IMG/VR virus record: IMGVR_UViG_3300020190_005287 | Span: 1 to 41,915 of that record | Length of the DNA: 41,915 nt | From: a virus | Reading direction: 5' to 3' (one strand) | Part shown: positions 25,004 to 34,031 of the stretch, one piece after another | Position numbering within the stretch: position 1 is the first letter of the stretch | Layout of the letters: the number at the start of each line of letters is the position of its first letter | The notes under the pieces: generated by a model | Seen by the model: the letters and a program-made list of their open reading frames with translations, nothing else | Told to the model about the DNA's origin: nothing | Database searches by the model: none | Position numbers and translations under genes: made by a program

Positions 25004-25414
25004 TCAGATAAATGTTTTGTCTAATGCTTGTCCCTCGTAAGGTCCTGTTTTATACTCGTAAACTAATGTATCGTCTTCTAAAATCAAGTAATTATGACCA
25101 CCTTCGAGAGTAAAACTAGCATCACCAACGTTTAGTATCGGTTCTGCCAATACAGTGTTATCCAAATCATAAAAAATACATTTAACAGACCCTTGAACAA
25201 CAATCCAACTTTCCTGAGCAATTACGTTTCTTGTTCTTTCTTTCCAAATATGTCTATGTGGTTTGAATGTTTTATCTTTTTCCATATTCAAGATTGAACA
25301 CTGAATAAAGTTCTCTTCTGATACAACATCTTTTCTTCCTGTAAGAATGTCCTCTTTTCTGACAACCATGTGAAGTAATTTACCTTCTTCTACTTTTGAA
25401 TAAAAATTTTCCAT
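25004..25414 (-). CDS. WbuC-like cupin protein
   Basis: 136 aa. KDKTFKPHRHIWKERTRNVI, then ESWIVVQGSVKCIFYDLDN, then NVGDASFTLEGGHNYLILED form a single cupin barrel with candidate metal ligands His in PHRH and a later His in GGHNY. WbuC-type cupins occur in O-antigen clusters near fucose-related genes; their reaction is not settled. It shares one base with the GT10 gene. Confidence 0.8.
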   Translation of the reverse strand: MENFYSKVEEGKLLHMVVRKEDILTGRKDVVSEENFIQCSILNMEKDKTFKPHRHIWKERTRNVIAQESWIVVQGSVKCIFYDLDNTVLAEPILNVGDASFTLEGGHNYLILEDDTLVYEYKTGPYEGQALDKTFI

Positions 25415-26247
25415 TATATAAGTTTTCCCTCATTTATAGCTTTATGAATTGTTGACCAAATATTGTATTTTTTTAACATCAGTTCTCTAGCCTCTTTCAA
25501 ATTTTCAATATTTTCTTCTCTGTAATTCGATTTAGAAATTTCGATTATTTGAGTGGATGCGTATTCAACCCCTTTACTGTCATCGAATAATATAAAACTA
25601 CCTTTCGGTAAGAATTTCGAAATTTGTTTACATCCAGAGTAAATTGGCATTGTTAATAATAAAATTGGGTCAACTATTTTCTCACTGAAATAAAAATCTG
25701 TTTTACAATTTTCAAGAACTAAATTATATCTGAAGTCCAAGAGACCATCTTTTTTATCCCTGTAAGGTAAGGTCCTATTATTAATTGGACCAAAAACTTC
25801 AATCTCATTCGAGAAATTGTTTCTCAAATGTAGGTTAAGGTCCACTCTGAAATTATGATATTGGGTATATCTTTTTCCTGAATCTATTGAGGATAGGTTT
25901 TTAGTTTTCTCAGGATTAATTACCGAAAGTTCGTTATAAGGAAGTTTAATCCACCAAGTTTGAGCCAACCAACTATTACCTTTTTCGTGGTGATAATTCC
26001 CGAAAGAATTTCTTGTCCACTCTTTAGTTCCAACAGCAGCGGGTTCCCTACCCAAAAAAATCACTTTTTCTTCTACAACGGATTCTGAAGTCTCATCCAT
26101 TACGATGATGTAGTCTGCTTCATCTTTGTTAAGTGTAAATGTAATGTTATCCCAAATACCTGAATTGTCGGGTGTTTGATGTCTGAAGTTTTCAACTAAA
26201 GTTTTACTTTCAGACCAAGGGGTATTCGCAAAGTAAATTTTTTTCAT
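25414..26247 (-). CDS. Fucosyltransferase-like GT10 enzyme
   Basis: 277 aa. YNLVLENCKTDFYFSEKIVD, then PILLLTMPIYSGC (about residues 174-206), is the GT10 donor-binding motif (compare FxLxFENSxxxDYxTEK and PVxxG). GT10 enzymes transfer fucose from GDP-fucose in alpha-1,3/1,4 linkage. The N-terminal acceptor half is short but recognisable (VIFLGREPAAV). The gmd gene lies in the same operon, which fits a GDP-fucose or related donor. No membrane anchor, so it is soluble. Confidence 0.85.
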   Translation of the reverse strand: MKKIYFANTPWSESKTLVENFRHQTPDNSGIWDNITFTLNKDEADYIIVMDETSESVVEEKVIFLGREPAAVGTKEWTRNSFGNYHHEKGNSWLAQTWWIKLPYNELSVINPEKTKNLSSIDSGKRYTQYHNFRVDLNLHLRNNFSNEIEVFGPINNRTLPYRDKKDGLLDFRYNLVLENCKTDFYFSEKIVDPILLLTMPIYSGCKQISKFLPKGSFILFDDSKGVEYASTQIIEISKSNYREENIENLKEARELMLKKYNIWSTIHKAINEGKLI

Positions 26248-27191
26248 TTTAAATTATTAATTTCGTAGTCTACCATTTCTTTTATCATATTTTCGAAAGA
26301 TAAATCGGATATCCAACCTATAGATTTAATTTTAGTGTTATCTCCAATTAAATCTATAGTTTCACATTCTCGAAATAAGGTTTTATCGATTTCTATGTAT
26401 TCTCTCCAATCGGGTATTTCTACGTGTTTGAATGCAACATCCAATAAGTTTTCTACTGTGTGAATTGAATTTGAGCTAAGTATGTAATCTTCTGGTTTTT
26501 CTTGTTGTAGTATTAACCACATTGCTTTTACAAAATCTTTCGCGGACGACCAATCACGCCTTGATTGCAGATTACCCAAAACAATTTTTTTACTAAGTCC
26601 GTTTTTTATTTTAACGACCTCTTGAACAATCTTTTTTGTCACTACGTTTCTCCTTCTATATTCACTTTCATGGTTGTAAAGAATTCCAGAGCAACAAAAT
26701 ACATGATAAAGAGTCCTATATTGTTTGATTAACTCTTGTGCTATAAATTTTGAATATCCATAAGGGTTTCTTGGATTTTTTGGTGAAAGTTCGTTTTGTG
26801 GTGAAACTGTTGGATTACCAAATATTTCGGAGGATGAACCAAAAAACAATTTTGATTTCTTACTCTTGTTTTTAACAAACTCCAATATTTTCAAGGTTGA
26901 ATTTACGTTTGTTTCATAGGTTAAAGTAAAGTCAACCCAACCTGGCTCAATTTCTGATTGTCCACCTAGAAGATAAAATTCGTCTATTTTTTTGTATTGT
27001 AATTTTTCCAAAATTGACTCCATTTGGGTCAGGTCTCCAATGATTAGTTCAATGTCTTTGTGTTTTTTAATTTCGTGAACTGATTGATTTCTGATTAGCC
27101 CGATAATATGATATCCCTTATCCAATAAAAAACTAGATAATAACTTACCGTCCATTCCTGACAATCCTGTAATAAATGCTGTTTTAGACAT
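26244..27191 (-). CDS. Second GMD-family NDP-sugar dehydratase/reductase
   Basis: 315 aa. GLSGMDG at residues 9-15, SSSEIFG (119-125) and YGYSK (Y144, K148) give an intact extended-SDR active site. GILYNHESEYRRRNVVTKKI and RDWSSAKDFVKAMWLIL align with the true Gmd of this island, so it is a diverged paralogue. It differs at the AQSHV segment (here GGQSEIEPGW). It could be a second dehydratase or an RMD-like reductase acting on the Gmd product; no separate Fcl-type enzyme is seen. Overlaps neighbours by 4 and 8 nt. Confidence 0.87.
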   Translation of the reverse strand: MSKTAFITGLSGMDGKLLSSFLLDKGYHIIGLIRNQSVHEIKKHKDIELIIGDLTQMESILEKLQYKKIDEFYLLGGQSEIEPGWVDFTLTYETNVNSTLKILEFVKNKSKKSKLFFGSSSEIFGNPTVSPQNELSPKNPRNPYGYSKFIAQELIKQYRTLYHVFCCSGILYNHESEYRRRNVVTKKIVQEVVKIKNGLSKKIVLGNLQSRRDWSSAKDFVKAMWLILQQEKPEDYILSSNSIHTVENLLDVAFKHVEIPDWREYIEIDKTLFRECETIDLIGDNTKIKSIGWISDLSFENMIKEMVDYEINNLK

Positions 27192-28422
27192 CGTCTCCTG
27201 AAATTATTTCGAATTTCGGACATGGTACTATGAAAGCGCCTCCCGATTTTAAGTAATCTCTTTCTCGGTTTTTAAATTCATTAATAAAATGCCAGGGTAA
27301 AACCAAAAGATAATCTGGTCTATTATTTCTCATTTGTTCTTCAGAAAAAATAGGAATATTTGTTCCTACAGTTTTCAATCCGAATTTATACGGACTTCTT
27401 TCAGCAATTCCGTCGATTAATGTATTGTCAAGTCCAAACCACTGTAGTAATGTGTTTCCCTTAGTTGACGCTCCATAACCCCATACAGTTTTACCATCTG
27501 ATTTTACCCTTTCAATAAATTTTACTGTTTCGTCTTTTAATTGATTAATTTTATTCCAAAAAACTAAATAAGGAGCTTCAGTATCCATTTTATTTTTTTC
27601 TTCGTATGCTAAAATACTTTCAACTCTATAATTAGCAACATCACGGTATGGAGAATTTCTGAATTTAGAAATAGTTGCTACATCCTTTCTTACGTATATT
27701 CTGAAACTTCCTCCATTTACATCATTCAACTGACAATCGACAATATTAAAATTTGCTTTTTCTAGCACATTTTTTATTGATTTCAGTGTATAATAATAAA
27801 CGTGTTCGTGACAAATATTATCAAATGCAAGTTGATTTATCATCAATGGAGTATAACTCATTTGTAGGACGAACAAACCTTCGTCGTCCATAATGTCATA
27901 AACGTCTTTTAAAAAATTGACAGGTTCGTCCAAGTCATAAAACATCGCGATAGCGGTGATTACCTTTGGTTTTATATTTCCGAATTCAGATTCTTGATAG
28001 GTATTCTTCGAGAAATAATCTTGAATAATCAGATTAGCAATTTTTCTTGATTCTTTGGTATATGATTCGTCCACTGGGTCAATACCTACCTTAATTATAT
28101 CATTAGGTACAGCATTTAGTAATGTACCATCATTACACGCGATATCTAACCAAACATCACCTTTTTCAACTTTTATTGATTTTAGACAACTTTGTACAAT
28201 ACCTTTTAATTCCTCAGTCATTGTTTGGTTTATACCTGACCTATACCAATATTTTCCATACATCAATTCACAATCCGTTGTTTTGGTAAGTCTGACCGCT
28301 CCAGTCTCAGATTCAATTGCAAGAGTCAAGGGCATTTTACCTGCTCTAGGATTTTCATTTTCACAAATAAAATCAGAAACGTATAAATCTCCTAAGGAGA
28401 ATAATTCTTTAAAATTTTTCAT
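27184..28422 (-). CDS. Sugar C-methyltransferase (TylCIII-like architecture)
   Basis: 412 aa with three parts: an N-terminal region where relatives have a zinc-binding module (SLGDLYVSDFICENE, here with only one Cys in this segment), a class I methyltransferase core with VWLDIACNDGTLLNAV (about residues 91-106), and a C-terminal Rossmann part with GKTVWGYGASTKGNTLLQWF and YLLVLPWHFINEF. This architecture is that of NDP-hexose C-methyltransferases that branch deoxysugars at C3. ICHEHVYYYT is the conserved catalytic segment. The Gmd product has the 4-keto group such enzymes need. Confidence 0.87.
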   Translation of the reverse strand: MKNFKELFSLGDLYVSDFICENENPRAGKMPLTLAIESETGAVRLTKTTDCELMYGKYWYRSGINQTMTEELKGIVQSCLKSIKVEKGDVWLDIACNDGTLLNAVPNDIIKVGIDPVDESYTKESRKIANLIIQDYFSKNTYQESEFGNIKPKVITAIAMFYDLDEPVNFLKDVYDIMDDEGLFVLQMSYTPLMINQLAFDNICHEHVYYYTLKSIKNVLEKANFNIVDCQLNDVNGGSFRIYVRKDVATISKFRNSPYRDVANYRVESILAYEEKNKMDTEAPYLVFWNKINQLKDETVKFIERVKSDGKTVWGYGASTKGNTLLQWFGLDNTLIDGIAERSPYKFGLKTVGTNIPIFSEEQMRNNRPDYLLVLPWHFINEFKNRERDYLKSGGAFIVPCPKFEIISGDDV

Positions 28423-28424
28423 AA

Positions 28425-29036
28425 TTAGATTGTTGTATAAATTTCGTTATAGTTTTGTTTAATTTCCAATTTATATCCTATAGAGCTCAGGTAACTTGAG
28501 TATTTAGGGTCTTCATTTACATTTTCTAATAATATAACTTTTGGTTTGTAGTTATTATGGTCAAAGCCTTTTAACACCTCAATTTCCCATCCTTCCGTAT
28601 CTACTGACAAAAAATCAATCTTATCGACGTAAATTGATTCCAAAAGTGTATCCAAGGTAATTATATCCACATCGATTATTTCTACTTTGGCATCAGATGG
28701 GTAAGCATATCTTGTATTGATTGCAGACCAACTACATCCATCATTTATATCTTCGTGAGTGTTAGGGGCTCGAATAATTTTAAATTGTCCTTTTTTATTT
28801 TCGTTCGAACAAGCAAATGGATAAATTTCATGACCCAATTTAATATGTTGTTCAACAAATTTCGGATTGGGGTCTATTGAAATACATCTCCACCCATTTT
28901 CTCTAAAATGTTTTGACATACTGATGTATATAGCTGGACCAGCTCCAACCTCAACCATTGTCCCTTTATATTCGAAATCAGGAAAAAAAACTTCTCTTAT
29001 TTTTTTATCTATTAAACCTTCAGCGTAATAATTCAT
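28425..29036 (-). CDS. FkbM-family methyltransferase
   Basis: 203 aa. GTMVEVGAGPAIYISMSKHF is motif I, WRCISIDPNPKFVEQ gives the acidic strand-2 end, and VDKIDFLSVDTEGWEIEVLK is the FkbM hallmark. FkbM enzymes O-methylate sugars and natural products. Substrate unknown. It overlaps by 4 nt a second FkbM-type gene and resembles it in core motifs. Confidence 0.9.
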   Translation of the reverse strand: MNYYAEGLIDKKIREVFFPDFEYKGTMVEVGAGPAIYISMSKHFRENGWRCISIDPNPKFVEQHIKLGHEIYPFACSNENKKGQFKIIRAPNTHEDINDGCSWSAINTRYAYPSDAKVEIIDVDIITLDTLLESIYVDKIDFLSVDTEGWEIEVLKGFDHNNYKPKVILLENVNEDPKYSSYLSSIGYKLEIKQNYNEIYTTI

Positions 29037-29713
29037 AATTTTATGTAGAATTCGTTTATTTTGTATCTTTGGTCTTTGATATATCCTTTAGTTGACATGA
29101 AAGATTCTATTTCGGAATCTTCATAATTATTTTCAACTACAAAAAGTTTTACTTCGAATTGTTCAAAATCAAAACCTTTTAGTACGTCTATTTCAGTTCC
29201 TTCTGTATCTACTGAAATGAAGTCTATGTTTTTTACTTTGTGTAGAGGTGTGTCTTCAATTTTATTCATTAAAATTGAGGTTAATGTATGCACCTCTACC
29301 ACTACAGTATAAGATTCGTTTATGATTTCTTTATGAGACTCCAAAAGTCTTGTATCAGGATTCAGAGATGTCAAAGAAGACATTATGTTCTTTTCTCCTA
29401 CTTTGAAGACATGTAAAGGTAAAAAGCCACTTTTATCTGAACACGCATAATATTTTACAAACTTTCTGAAATTTTCTAATGATTCTTTGTGTGCGGGATT
29501 TGGTTCTATACACAAAGCGTTCCACCCTTGTTTTTCGAAGTATAAAGTATTTGAACCTTTTACACCATTTGCTGCACCTACTTCTACACAACTACCCAAG
29601 TGTCCTATAGGAAAATAGGTTTCAATTATTCTGTCAGTTTCCCATTGTCCAAAATATTTTCCATTATTCCACCCTTTTAATTCTTGAAAAATTTTATTGT
29701 TATCGTAGCTCAT
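29033..29713 (-). CDS. FkbM-family methyltransferase (second copy)
   Basis: 226 aa. SCVEVGAANGVKGSNTLYFE (motif I), WNALCIEPNPAHKESLENF, and NIDFISVDTEGTEIDVLKGF show the same family as the gene beside it. The two share architecture but differ widely outside motifs, so this is an old duplication or separate acquisition. Probably O-methylates glycan residues made by the island. Confidence 0.9.
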   Translation of the reverse strand: MSYDNNKIFQELKGWNNGKYFGQWETDRIIETYFPIGHLGSCVEVGAANGVKGSNTLYFEKQGWNALCIEPNPAHKESLENFRKFVKYYACSDKSGFLPLHVFKVGEKNIMSSLTSLNPDTRLLESHKEIINESYTVVVEVHTLTSILMNKIEDTPLHKVKNIDFISVDTEGTEIDVLKGFDFEQFEVKLFVVENNYEDSEIESFMSTKGYIKDQRYKINEFYIKL

Positions 29714-30438
29714 TTTTTAGACCACTTTTGTCTCAAGTCCTCGAAAATTGATAAATCTTCGGACCTCATGTTTATTTCATAATAATCCATATCAATCTTT
29801 CCAAAGTTGAAAGTTTGTGGGTTTGGTTTTCCTTCTCTCATCGCATCCAAGTCCGCATAAAAAATTTCATTGGGTATCAAAACTTTTTCAGTCCATGAAA
29901 ATATGTTGTTATAAACCTCGAAATCATGTGGATTTTTGATAAAACCTGGATGGTTAAGCATTTTCAGAAAGAAATCTTTTCTCCAAATTGCAGGACGAAG
30001 AGATGTTGGGTAGTATGAATTCTGACCCGTCTTAGCAAAAGAAAATAAATCATCGTATCTAACTAAACTATCACCAACATATGGAGGGTGAGCCCTTATT
30101 TTTGAGATGGAATGGTCCTCCTCCATTATTTTTTTTGCCCTTTCAAAATAATTTTTTTTTAGATAATCTACTAAAATATGGTCTTCAAAAAAAAGAAAAA
30201 AATATTCTTCTTTTAGTTTTTCAAAGTATGGGTTTAAAACGACGTGCCAAGGAGAAGAATCGGAAAAATTACTTCCAAGACGTATAAATTCAAAATTTTT
30301 TTGTATTTCACTTTCTGGTTTACTAAATCCAAGAATTGTGAACTCTGAGTCATCATCGCACCAATATTTCGAAATCATCTTTTGAAACCCGTCCAAACAA
30401 AAAGAATATTTGTCTGAAGTTAACACAATTTTTTTCAT
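29710..30438 (-). CDS. Putative glycosyltransferase (GT-A-like)
   Basis: 242 aa. MKKIVLTSDKYSFCLDGFQK, then EEYFFLFFEDHILVDYLKKN (acidic metal-site candidate FEDH), then SLRPAIWRKDFFLKMLNHPG and NPHDFEVYNN match a group of GT-A-like proteins in polysaccharide loci in which xxWRKDFL and WEFE-like segments recur. Donor unknown. It overlaps neighbours by 4 nt on both sides. Less certain than the other transferases. Confidence 0.68.
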   Translation of the reverse strand: MKKIVLTSDKYSFCLDGFQKMISKYWCDDDSEFTILGFSKPESEIQKNFEFIRLGSNFSDSSPWHVVLNPYFEKLKEEYFFLFFEDHILVDYLKKNYFERAKKIMEEDHSISKIRAHPPYVGDSLVRYDDLFSFAKTGQNSYYPTSLRPAIWRKDFFLKMLNHPGFIKNPHDFEVYNNIFSWTEKVLIPNEIFYADLDAMREGKPNPQTFNFGKIDMDYYEINMRSEDLSIFEDLRQKWSKK

Positions 30439-31691
30439 AATATACTACCAATCAAATTAATATCATTTACATCCTTAGGTTCGTTTCTTTTCAGTTTCAT
30501 TCTTCTGATAATATCAAGAGAAGCAAATTTTACCCCCATGGAATAAAAATGAAAATGAGGATTTAGAATAATTTCATCATAATTTGGTTCATAAAGTTCT
30601 TTGCCGTAATCATTATGACTGTGAATTAAATTTTGTTCATCATGAATCAATGTTGTATTCAAATGAATATAATCCAAATCCTCCCCTTCTCTAAGACCAA
30701 ATGCTGTGAGTGGTGAACTGCCAGCAATACAATATTCATCGATATCTAAATTGTTGTCTTCTAAAAACTTCTTGAATCTTTGAACTGTTTTTTCAAATTT
30801 AGAGAAATGAATAGGTTTTGTTTTATTTAAATGTTCGACACTATTGTCATTAAATAGTATTCTTGCGAGTCTCATCGTTTGTTCGTGGGTATCGTTCACA
30901 TGAACAGAGTGATTTCCAACACCATGTATGTTTCTAATATCATTTTTTACACCTCTTGTATCATCAAGTTTTGGAAATTGAGCTAAGAATACATAAGTTG
31001 GAGAGTTTGTAGTATAACAAAGGCTTTCTTTCATTCTAAACCCGTGATAGTTATCATGCGGACCACCAGCCCAAGCTTCACCCGCATAAAGTTCTCTCAT
31101 TAAATTTAATGGACCATAACCAAAAAGATTAATATTCCTATAGTAAATTAAATTACCATATCTATTAATTACATCTATAGCTGATTTGAAATCTCCTTTA
31201 GCAGACGGAAAAAGGGTGACAACATAAGTGTCTTTCAATAATTTAGAATATTCAATTCCGACTTGATTTCCGTATACTTCAGGAAGTCTTATTGCTCTGA
31301 AATGGTTATCCCAACTACAGTCTTTTTGACCATCGTGGGGCATATTTGCGGGTCTAGTATCAAGCTCTTTATCCAAAGCTAAACAAGCGGCCACCCTATG
31401 TGCGCCATTTACCATGTATTTTTCATCTAAAATTGGAACTTTAGAAATTTGTGAGTTGAACCCATCTTCTTTTATAGAGTGTATAATTTTATGAAATTCA
31501 TTATTAAAAGACTCGAAAGTACATTTATTTGGATTATCGTACTCCACAAATCCATTCCAAAGTTCTAAATGTTTTTTATACATTTCTTTGAAAAAATTTG
31601 TTTTGTAGTTTTTGACTATAGATTTGGCATAAAGATATTTTAGGACTAAATCAAATCTGAAATGTGTTATAAGTTCATTTGCCTTTTTCAT
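30435..31691 (-). CDS. ParB-like plus nucleotidyltransferase-like fusion protein
   Basis: 418 aa. Residues about 57-115 resemble the ParB/Srx fold: VPILDEKYMVNGAHRVAACL, with GAHR in place of the ParB GxxR box. The middle (155-300) contains GYGPLNLMRELYAGEAW and HSVHVNDTHEQTMRLARIL, a conserved unknown domain. Residues about 318-345 read CIAGSSPLTAFGLREGEDLD, a nucleotidyltransferase-like GS-x(n)-DxD signature (D338, D340). Proteins with similar parts occur in exopolysaccharide clusters, but their reaction is not known to me. A nucleotide-activated sugar or ligand transfer role is inferred only. Confidence 0.7.
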   Translation of the reverse strand: MKKANELITHFRFDLVLKYLYAKSIVKNYKTNFFKEMYKKHLELWNGFVEYDNPNKCTFESFNNEFHKIIHSIKEDGFNSQISKVPILDEKYMVNGAHRVAACLALDKELDTRPANMPHDGQKDCSWDNHFRAIRLPEVYGNQVGIEYSKLLKDTYVVTLFPSAKGDFKSAIDVINRYGNLIYYRNINLFGYGPLNLMRELYAGEAWAGGPHDNYHGFRMKESLCYTTNSPTYVFLAQFPKLDDTRGVKNDIRNIHGVGNHSVHVNDTHEQTMRLARILFNDNSVEHLNKTKPIHFSKFEKTVQRFKKFLEDNNLDIDEYCIAGSSPLTAFGLREGEDLDYIHLNTTLIHDEQNLIHSHNDYGKELYEPNYDEIILNPHFHFYSMGVKFASLDIIRRMKLKRNEPKDVNDINLIGSIL

Positions 31692-31695
31692 TTTT

Positions 31696-32406
31696 CTAAA
31701 TTTTTGTATATTCTTTTTTGTTTCTAATTTTGTTAACAGTTTTAATCACATTACCAATGTTAACTTTGTGGTCATTTATTGGATTAGATTCGTTGTAAAT
31801 GTATAAAATATCTGATAAAAATCTATAATGTTCCTCACCCGCCATTTCCAACATTGGGAACATAAACGATAAATCTCCTGCAACACTCCAATATTCTCCT
31901 TTTTCATCTTTTAAATCTTCCAATAAAATTTTTTTCCATAACCAAGCTTTCCAAGTCCTCAAATGAGACAAGGTAAAGGTCTGTTTCCTTATATCAGTGA
32001 ATTTTTGTGGTGGGTTGGCAAAACCAGGTCTCCCGTCATGATATTTGAATGAACCACTAGTCATCCATACATTTGAGTCTTTGTATACTTCGGCAATTTT
32101 TTCCAATACCTTCGGATTTGGCAGCCAATCATCACCGTCAATTTCAACGCATATTTCATCGCCTTCAATATTCCTGAATCTAATAACTTGGTCGTAATTT
32201 CCAGGTTGATAAAATTTACAATTATTTTCTATGAGAACGAATCTATCATCATTTGCGATAGCCGACTTAATTTTATTTAAAGTGTTGTCGGTTGACATAT
32301 CATCTGTAATGTAGCATTTGAATTTTTTAAAACTTTGCGACATAATTGAGAATAAACATCTTTCAATATACGTTTCACAATTGAAAGTAGTCGTCAGGAT
32401 AATCAC
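31696..32406 (-). CDS. Glycosyltransferase family 2
   Basis: 236 aa with a GTG start (GTGA overlap with the next gene). IILTTTFNCETYIERCLFSI, CYITDDMSTDNTL and ICVEIDGDDWLPNPKVLEKI (DGDD metal site) are the classical GT2 motifs. WKAWLWKKILLEDLKDEKG follows as the acceptor-side region. Soluble, no membrane anchor. Confidence 0.92.
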   Translation of the reverse strand: MIILTTTFNCETYIERCLFSIMSQSFKKFKCYITDDMSTDNTLNKIKSAIANDDRFVLIENNCKFYQPGNYDQVIRFRNIEGDEICVEIDGDDWLPNPKVLEKIAEVYKDSNVWMTSGSFKYHDGRPGFANPPQKFTDIRKQTFTLSHLRTWKAWLWKKILLEDLKDEKGEYWSVAGDLSFMFPMLEMAGEEHYRFLSDILYIYNESNPINDHKVNIGNVIKTVNKIRNKKEYTKI

Positions 32407-34031
32407 GATATTATTTTTATATATTCTTCTTTTATTTGTTCAGCCACTTTGATAGAGTGATATTTTTCCAAATCAGATGGAGGGTCAAATTTTTCTTTTT
32501 CGGATATAAATCCATTTGAATTTACTTTGAAAATCCAACCAGGCTTTCCACATAACCAACCTTCAATGGTACTTCTCCCCAATTGTATACCAGCAGTTTC
32601 CTTACAATTTTTAATAAACTTTTCTACATTCCAAGTTGCTGGAAAATGTTTGATGTGTTTCTCAAGAAGCAACAATTCCAAATACTTGGATTTGTTTTCT
32701 CCTACTATCCATAGTTCTAAATTGTTTTTTTCACAATACTCAGAAAGTTCCATAAGGGTATCTTTTCTTAGATAGTCAATTGTTCCAACAAATAAAACGT
32801 AATTCTCCTCTTTGTTGTTTTTGGAATTAAATTTTTCTTCATCGACTGGATTGTAAATCACCTCAATGTCTTCTTCCTTGATTTCGAAATTATCTATCAG
32901 ATGAGTTTTAATTTCAGGTCTAATTGCTATGTATTTTTTCACCGTATCATTTATGAAAGGTTCTTCCAAACTAATAACCTCAGAGTGTATGGAATATATT
33001 TTTGGAAGTTCAGGGTAAAAATTACAAATTCTTTCAGCAACTGGTTTGTGTTGAATGTGAACAATATCAAAGTCTACCTCCGATACTCTATACATCATAT
33101 TTTCTTTTGATGGCTCAAATCCCTTTTCAGTTTGTATGCCCCATTTTCCGTCTCCTAATTTGAAACCAGGAGCTTCTTCAAAGGGTAAAACTTTGATTCC
33201 AATTTTTCTTGCCATATCGGTAAGAGGTCCGCCAATTTGTGATACAATTGTCACACTACAGTTTAATTTCATCAAACTTTTAGCGAGCTCATAAACATAA
33301 AGTTCAGAACCTGTGAAAGTTTTAAACATAAGACAAGATATGAGGACTCTAAGTTTTTTATTTAAATTGAAAGGTAATTTTGTTGGAAGATAATTTTCAT
33401 AAATTTTTTCGAACTTTTGTCTATTATTTTCCCACTGTTCATTTGTTTGTCCAATTGATTTGTGAGTGATTCTTACATTTGTTATTATACCTATTTTGAT
33501 TCCTTCTAAGTAATTGTCAAAACAGAAGGGAATGTCATAAAAGTGAAAACCTTTGAAAGATTCATTAAAGTTTTTTTTAATTCTTTTCTTATGAATAGCA
33601 ATAAAAACACCATCAACAATTATTGATGGCTCGATGTTATTACCAAACGACTCTGAATATTTGGACTCCCATTTTTTTCCTCCACTCTCGTGATTTACAA
33701 TACCAATCATTTTTTTTCTGTCTTCCCACCACATACCTGATTTGGGCATGTATCTTGTTCCAGCCATCCCCAAAATACCATATTCACTTTTTTCGAAATG
33801 TTCTTTAATTTTCGGGTACCACGCATTAGTGTCGAAATAAATGTCATCGTGGCATAAAATAACTATATCCGTATCTGACTCTTCTAAAATTTCATTGTAA
33901 ACTTGAGACAAGGATTTATCACCATTATTAATCTTTTCGATTACTTTAGTTTTCTTAAAACCTGAACTCTTGATTAAGTAATCTGTAAATTCTGGTTTTG
34001 GTGATTTTGTTGAATAACCTATAGTAATCAT
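32403..34031 (-). CDS. Two-domain glycosyltransferase (GT-A plus GT-B)
   Basis: 542 aa. The N-terminal about 215 residues form a GT-A-like domain (MITIGYSTKSPKPEF, then DIVILCHDDIYFDTNAWYPK with a DD metal site, and VDGVFIAIHKKRIK). From about residue 225 a GT4-type GT-B follows: RVLISCLMFKTFTGSELYVY, DIVHIQHKPVAERI, VLFVGTIDYLRKD, and GIQLGRSTIEGWLCGKPGW as donor site. A single protein could add two successive sugars. The ATG overlaps the stop of the 56-aa gene (ATGA). Confidence 0.87.
   Translation of the reverse strand: MITIGYSTKSPKPEFTDYLIKSSGFKKTKVIEKINNGDKSLSQVYNEILEESDTDIVILCHDDIYFDTNAWYPKIKEHFEKSEYGILGMAGTRYMPKSGMWWEDRKKMIGIVNHESGGKKWESKYSESFGNNIEPSIIVDGVFIAIHKKRIKKNFNESFKGFHFYDIPFCFDNYLEGIKIGIITNVRITHKSIGQTNEQWENNRQKFEKIYENYLPTKLPFNLNKKLRVLISCLMFKTFTGSELYVYELAKSLMKLNCSVTIVSQIGGPLTDMARKIGIKVLPFEEAPGFKLGDGKWGIQTEKGFEPSKENMMYRVSEVDFDIVHIQHKPVAERICNFYPELPKIYSIHSEVISLEEPFINDTVKKYIAIRPEIKTHLIDNFEIKEEDIEVIYNPVDEEKFNSKNNKEENYVLFVGTIDYLRKDTLMELSEYCEKNNLELWIVGENKSKYLELLLLEKHIKHFPATWNVEKFIKNCKETAGIQLGRSTIEGWLCGKPGWIFKVNSNGFISEKEKFDPPSDLEKYHSIKVAEQIKEEYIKIIS

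Follow-up and report, generated by a model that had tools for sequence, protein, structure and literature searches.

A three-domain protein with ParB/sulfiredoxin-like, nucleoside-diphosphate-kinase-like, and nucleotidyltransferase-like parts in phage and bacterial glycan loci

Genomic Setting of P0001

The window analyzed here (the whole stretch of 41,915 nucleotides, positions 1 to 41,915 of the IMG/VR virus record IMGVR_UViG_3300020190_005287) encodes portal and major head proteins together with a set of glycan-related genes on the minus strand (Table 1). Among these lies P0001, in which a GAHR motif, a middle domain, and a C-terminal GS..DxD motif are carried by one 418-aa open reading frame, the three-part architecture that an earlier note on this DNA had described from its letters. 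The same note had placed the gene within a glycan operon, and the neighboring genes agree with this, as they comprise GT2, GT4, and GT10 glycosyltransferases, two FkbM-type methyltransferases, a C-methyltransferase, and a GDP-mannose-dehydratase-like gene. The 242-aa neighbor directly downstream of P0001 returned no match in a Pfam scan; its relatives, found with phmmer, accompany the three-domain gene in nine other phage loci.

Table 1. Coordinates of P0001, its domains and motifs, and the surrounding genes in the window.
Feature	Coordinates	Strand	Remarks
GT10 fucosyltransferase-like	25414..26247	minus	
GDP-mannose 4,6-dehydratase-like SDR	26244..27191	minus	
Sugar C-methyltransferase (Methyltransf_14)	27184..28422	minus	
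FkbM-type methyltransferase	28425..29036	minus	
FkbM-type methyltransferase	29033..29713	minus	
Conserved phage neighbor, 242 aa, family not assigned	29710..30438	minus	Directly downstream of P0001
P0001	30435..31691	minus	Whole ORF, 418 aa, stop codon included
Domain 3, about residues 291–418, nucleotidyltransferase-like	30438..30821	minus	GS..DxD motif, AlphaFold2 strand order, profiles, relatives
DLD (D338, D340), putative metal-binding pair	30672..30680	minus	Intact with H/N359 in 58/65
Domain 2, about residues 151–290, nucleoside-diphosphate-kinase-like fold	30822..31241	minus	Foldseek, VIA-align, hhalign
SVHVNDT, residues 262–268, equivalent of the NDK VHGSDS active-site loop	30888..30908	minus	S262, H264, D267, T268 invariant
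Domain 1, residues 1–150, ParB/sulfiredoxin-like	31242..31691	minus	AlphaFold2 alone, VIA-align, hhalign
GAHR motif, residues 96–99, P-motif equivalent	31395..31406	minus	H98, R99 in 65/65
GT2 glycosyltransferase	31696..32406	minus	Directly upstream of P0001
Two-domain glycosyltransferase (GT2-like and GT4)	32403..34031	minus	

Domain Structure of P0001

An alignment of 65 family members served both for conservation counts and as input to AlphaFold2, which modeled the whole of P0001 with a pLDDT of 95.6 and a pTM of 0.94. The folds of P0001 are well supported, with the C-terminal fold assigned by motif and relatives only. Given that the fold lists obtained with the whole model were filled by nucleoside diphosphate kinases (NDKs), the absence of other folds from those lists is not interpretable.

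The first domain, modeled alone (pLDDT 95.8), matched ParB, KorB, Noc, Spo0J, or Srx in all 12 rows of the VIA-align comparison, at Z-scores of 3.5–5.3 that are low in absolute terms, and Spo0J was its top Foldseek match (E = 0.57, probability 0.66). In an hhalign comparison with ParB_N (P = 0.005), the GAHR motif paired with the GERR of ParB; G96 is present in 62 of the 65 members. Weak matches were also noted to the NCBIfam SerK family (NF053625; 2/65 members, E = 0.028) and to ParB in PHROGs (six members). The single-superfamily list, the GAHR/GERR alignment, and these weak SerK and ParB matches together indicate a ParB/sulfiredoxin (Srx) fold, as had been proposed earlier from the GAHR box. 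The domain shares its fold and G-x-H-R P-motif with the ParB-CTPase/sulfiredoxin/SerK group (PF02195 and relatives) but differs in lacking an HTH and a ParA context, in having two extra N-terminal helices, and in carrying its own invariant set (R12, D14, K18, Y38, and K56). We take the GxHR variant to be that of Srx and SerK. Identity as a ParB of DNA segregation was rejected, as PF02195 has no match and the remaining chain is NDK-like and nucleotidyltransferase-like, with neither an HTH nor a dimerization domain. Nor does PF02195 appear in the family list of the 65 members, and with no match to it in P0001, the family probably falls outside a PF02195-based survey whose main text makes no mention of nucleotidyltransferase, NDK, or polysaccharide (PMC12704722).

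The middle domain had been called unknown in the earlier note; its fold is instead NDK-like by both Foldseek and VIA-align (Z of about 12), and an NDK-like pattern was visible from the sequence before any model was made. The top Foldseek matches in the PDB were NDKs or NDK-fold axonemal proteins (probability 1.0), albeit with a modest best E-value of 6e-3, while VIA-align against solved NDKs gave Z-scores of 11–12.3 over 116–133 residues (rmsd 2.5–3.6; model residues about 151–284). Comparison to NDK with hhalign gave P = 0.0034 for the full profile and 0.00055 for the middle slice. In the profile alignment, H264 falls on the active-site phospho-histidine of NDK, Y202 on the conserved tyrosine of the FYAEH segment, and R253 on the arginine of the TIR motif, so that these three residues are conserved together with the fold. 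Other catalytic positions are replaced, the lysine of KPDA by F161, the asparagine by H261, and the glutamate by L275, and the Kpn loop is mostly absent in P0001 (gapped in the same alignment). These losses rule out identity as a canonical NDK and mean that nucleotide binding of the NDK kind may not occur. Unlike NDK (PF00334), the domain also lies below the Pfam cut-off, with no member above the PF00334 gathering score (one of 65 at E = 0.056), and is embedded between two other domains. As a side observation, an open frame of 397 aa in the genome of L045 (a Pedosphaera MAG) matches the NDK family several times (L091–L093).

The C-terminal domain carries the signature GSSPLTAFGLREGEDLDY (D338, D340), in which the glycine of the GS motif varies among members. 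These motifs of the nucleotidyltransferase (NTase) superfamily, the strand order in the AlphaFold2 model, and NTase-annotated relatives agree with one another and with the GS...DxD nucleotidyltransferase noted previously, making the domain NTase-like by motif and by relatives. An AbiEii profile matched it with P = 0.015, aligning both GS and DxD. Standalone relatives of 128–160 aa in Saccharibacteria and Clostridia have clear GSG..DIDLLV motifs and weak matches to NTP_transf_2, NTP_transf_5, and GlnE. With the pol-beta-type nucleotidyltransferases (NTP_transf_2, AbiEii, and NTP_transf_5), domain 3 shares the GS..DxD core and a C-terminal K..R...KD..D pattern; it differs in an extra conserved R334 and apparently in the third acidic residue, since, aligned by eye, the standalone relatives read ..EIMVD where the family seems to carry H359 at the third carboxylate position. 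Kinship with LicD, prompted by a G..L..R...DxD pattern, was not supported, as the fIPWDDDID motif is absent; hhalign of domain 3 against a single LicD sequence aligned six columns only (P = 0.065). In Saccharibacteria, relatives of domain 3 were also seen fused to a NUDIX domain (L136) or an HD domain (L143), and at the C-terminus of proteins of about 630 aa (L140, L148, L152, L157, L158, and L162), of which that of L140 resembles, by eye, a SulP anion transporter with a STAS domain.

Members and Distribution of the Family

Searches with P0001 matched no family in Pfam, nothing above the cut-off in NCBIfam and PHROGs, no PDB sequence, and no protein of the annotated phage genomes. By tblastn, three plasmid homologs were found, one of them on pILYOP01 of Ilyobacter polytropus, and all are annotated as “hypothetical protein” in glycan loci. 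Pattern scans extended the relatives to 39 viral and 38 bacterial loci, most of them aligning with P0001 end to end at 20–79% identity, which places the architecture beyond chance. In bacteria, where the earlier note had advised a search of polysaccharide loci, the family occurs in glycan loci and spans at least 10 phyla: Pseudomonadota, Campylobacterota, Bacteroidota, Bacillota, Planctomycetota, Verrucomicrobiota, Myxococcota, Ignavibacteriota, Thermodesulfobacteriota, and Saccharibacteria. Its viral setting is tailed-phage contigs. Several phages (e.g., L007, L018, L020, and L032) fuse an N-terminal GT2 domain to the family module, and giant proteins of several bacteria (1269–2583 aa) join the module with GT2, GT10, FkbM, and TPR domains. 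A structure search of viral proteins added giant-virus relatives over at least 336 alignment columns, in Mimivirus LCMiAC01 (A0A481Z0W0, E = 1e-14), Catovirus (A0A1V0SAX2), and Yasminevirus. We noted that these BFVD entries (A0A481Z0W0, A0A1V0SAX2, and A0A5K0UAL1) are structural relatives of most of P0001, and that two of them are annotated as glycosyltransferases.

Fifteen residues are invariant in all 65 sequences (R12, D14, K18, Y38, K56, H98, R99, Y202, W207, K249, R253, S262, H264, D267, and T268). All 15 lie within the ParB/Srx-like and NDK-like domains, and all save W207 are polar or charged. With the NTase residues intact in only 58 of these sequences, the ParB/Srx-like and NDK-like pair is the constant core of the family. 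Each of the folds is already known; we found no description of their combination in one protein in a literature search of partial coverage, and unpublished or subscription-only accounts may exist.

Several divergent proteins were seen besides. A plasmid homolog of Paracoccus alcaliphilus (L006 7881-8783, 301 aa) keeps the ParB/Srx-like domain, with a decayed NDK-like part and no NTase. In Clostridia, three proteins (L128 7387-9255, L129 8169-9131, and L134 7670-8542) have a different N-terminal domain preceding the ParB/Srx-like domain; the NDK-like domain is missing from L129 and L134, and in L128 both the NDK and NTase sites seem degraded.

Loss and Replacement of the Nucleotidyltransferase Domain

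Domain 3 has degenerated or been lost in 7 of the 65 members (L060, L073, L074, L077, L078, L079, and L080). L077 was scored as degenerate by eye, its aligned aspartates being a misalignment, and in L080 a hexapeptide acetyltransferase occupies the place of the domain. When neighboring genes were clustered, one gene family was found in exactly five of these seven loci. Its products are NTase-like, with an invariant DID motif and weak matches to NTP_transf_5 (E = 5e-4 and 7e-3), and L077 carries a member of the same family as its C-terminal extension. Across all loci, a profile search recovered this family in six of the seven NTase-deficient loci and in none of the 58 with an intact DxD (Fisher’s exact test, p = 8e-8, for cases that are not phylogenetically independent). 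The seven deficient members fall into three supported clades of the core tree, and as the tree does not settle how these clades are related, the pattern may represent between one and three replacement events.

Genome-wide searches found no replacement NTase in the intact-NTase genomes tested. Among additional genomes, L127 agrees with the pattern, having an intact DxD and no extra NTase, while L126 is an exception, with neither domain 3 nor a replacement NTase genome-wide. That a lost domain 3 is usually accompanied by a different NTase speaks for a core that uses NTP and is coupled to a nucleotidyltransferase, and the simplest reading is that the core pair works together with such an enzyme, in cis or in trans.

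Possible Function

The union of an NTP-type fold, a conserved histidine on an NDK-like fold, and a swappable NTase suggests that phosphorylation comes first and transfer onto the phosphate second. Together with the glycan context in both phages and bacteria and the fusions to GT2, GT10, and FkbM domains, this points to P0001 as a phosphotransfer-type core joined to a nucleotidyltransferase that modifies a surface glycan, a reading whose chemistry we infer and to which we give a probability of roughly 0.45. The activation or transfer of a sugar or phosphate group, as suggested earlier, remains plausible and is strengthened by the NTase replacement, with the chemistry as its conjectural part. 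Weighing against the phosphotransfer reading are the missing canonical NDK residues and Kpn loop, the apparent substitution of H359 for the third NTase carboxylate, the modest Foldseek E-values, the possibly small number of replacement events, and the exceptions L126 and L080.

In such a scheme, the ParB/Srx-like domain, through GAHR, would bind an NTP or NDP; ParB-fold proteins are known to bind CTP, ATP, or GTP (PMC12704722). This domain and the NDK-like domain (Y202, W207, K249, R253, H264, and D267) would then pass a phosphoryl group to an acceptor (a sugar, a glycan, or a small alcohol), either directly or relayed through a phospho-histidine. The NTase domain would next act on the transferred phosphate with a second nucleotide or a nucleotide-sugar, so that the glycan built by the neighboring glycosyltransferases would come to bear a phosphate-linked substituent; in the phage, this would remodel the host surface glycan during infection. 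A precedent for a kinase and an NTase acting in sequence is offered by pseudomycoidin, where PsmK phosphorylates a serine and PsmN, of the NTase family, then adds a hexose, although true nucleotidylation followed by host glycosylation remains possible according to the source (PMC9266682, PMC8498205). The likeness is a functional analogy only, a kinase step whose phosphorylated product is then used by an NTase-family protein, as the pseudomycoidin enzymes differ in their unrelated kinase fold, peptide substrate, and separate genes. A Pfam scan of P0001 gave no match to an HPr-kinase-like domain of the PsmK type, and its three domains are assigned elsewhere.

The same order of a kinase-like and then a nucleotidyltransferase domain, the partner NTase being retained or replaced, would also fit sugar activation, in which domain 3 would turn a sugar phosphate, made from the free sugar by domains 1 and 2, into an NDP-sugar for the adjacent glycosyltransferases, as in the fucokinase/GDP-fucose pyrophosphorylase salvage route. 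The adjoining glycosyltransferases and SDR sugar-nucleotide enzymes are in line with this, but the nearby SDRs imply that sugar nucleotides are already supplied by central metabolism. Known NDP-sugar pyrophosphorylases, moreover, are built on a GT-A-like fold and not on that of the pol-beta NTases, and we consider this route improbable.

We are similarly doubtful that domains 1 and 2 form a catalytically reduced nucleotide switch, acting as a sensor or scaffold for the NTase or the fused glycosyltransferases, with domain 3 or the NTase in trans as the enzyme. ParB-fold domains are often NTP switches (PMC12704722), the lysine, asparagine, and glutamate of NDK are lost, and fusion to glycosyltransferases is frequent; against this, the strictest conservation, that of the 15 invariant residues, falls within the first two domains, and it is domain 3 that some members have lost or exchanged. 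Least probable, and in our view very unlikely, is that domain 1 alone is a small-molecule kinase like SerK, an ADP-dependent serine kinase that was first annotated as ParB (PMC5120207), acting for instance on an amino-acid substituent of the glycan while the NDK-like domain does no more than bind the product or glycan, given that the GxHR motif, the weak SerK matches, and the ParB-like domains without an NDK-like domain in L129 and L134 are countered by the invariant H264, D267, T268, K249, and R253, which indicate that the NDK-like domain also takes part in the chemistry.

Returning to the phosphotransfer core joined to an NTase, the findings suggest that this family adds a phosphate-linked decoration to surface glycans. 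A more specific version, which we put forward tentatively and think rather unlikely as worded, is that of a new phosphotransferase class shared by bacteria, tailed phages, and giant viruses, where a composite active site of the ParB/Srx-like and divergent NDK-like domains would phosphorylate a glycan or sugar via H264, coupled to a replaceable NTase.

If the proposed function is correct, P0001 would represent an enzyme family without prior annotation for the decoration of surface glycans in bacteria and phages. Its phosphotransfer chemistry would draw on folds whose known roles lie in chromosome segregation and nucleotide balancing, extending the roles of both, and the family would account for a group of glycan-locus genes annotated as “hypothetical.” For the phages that carry it, the family would provide a specific route by which they may alter host surface sugars.
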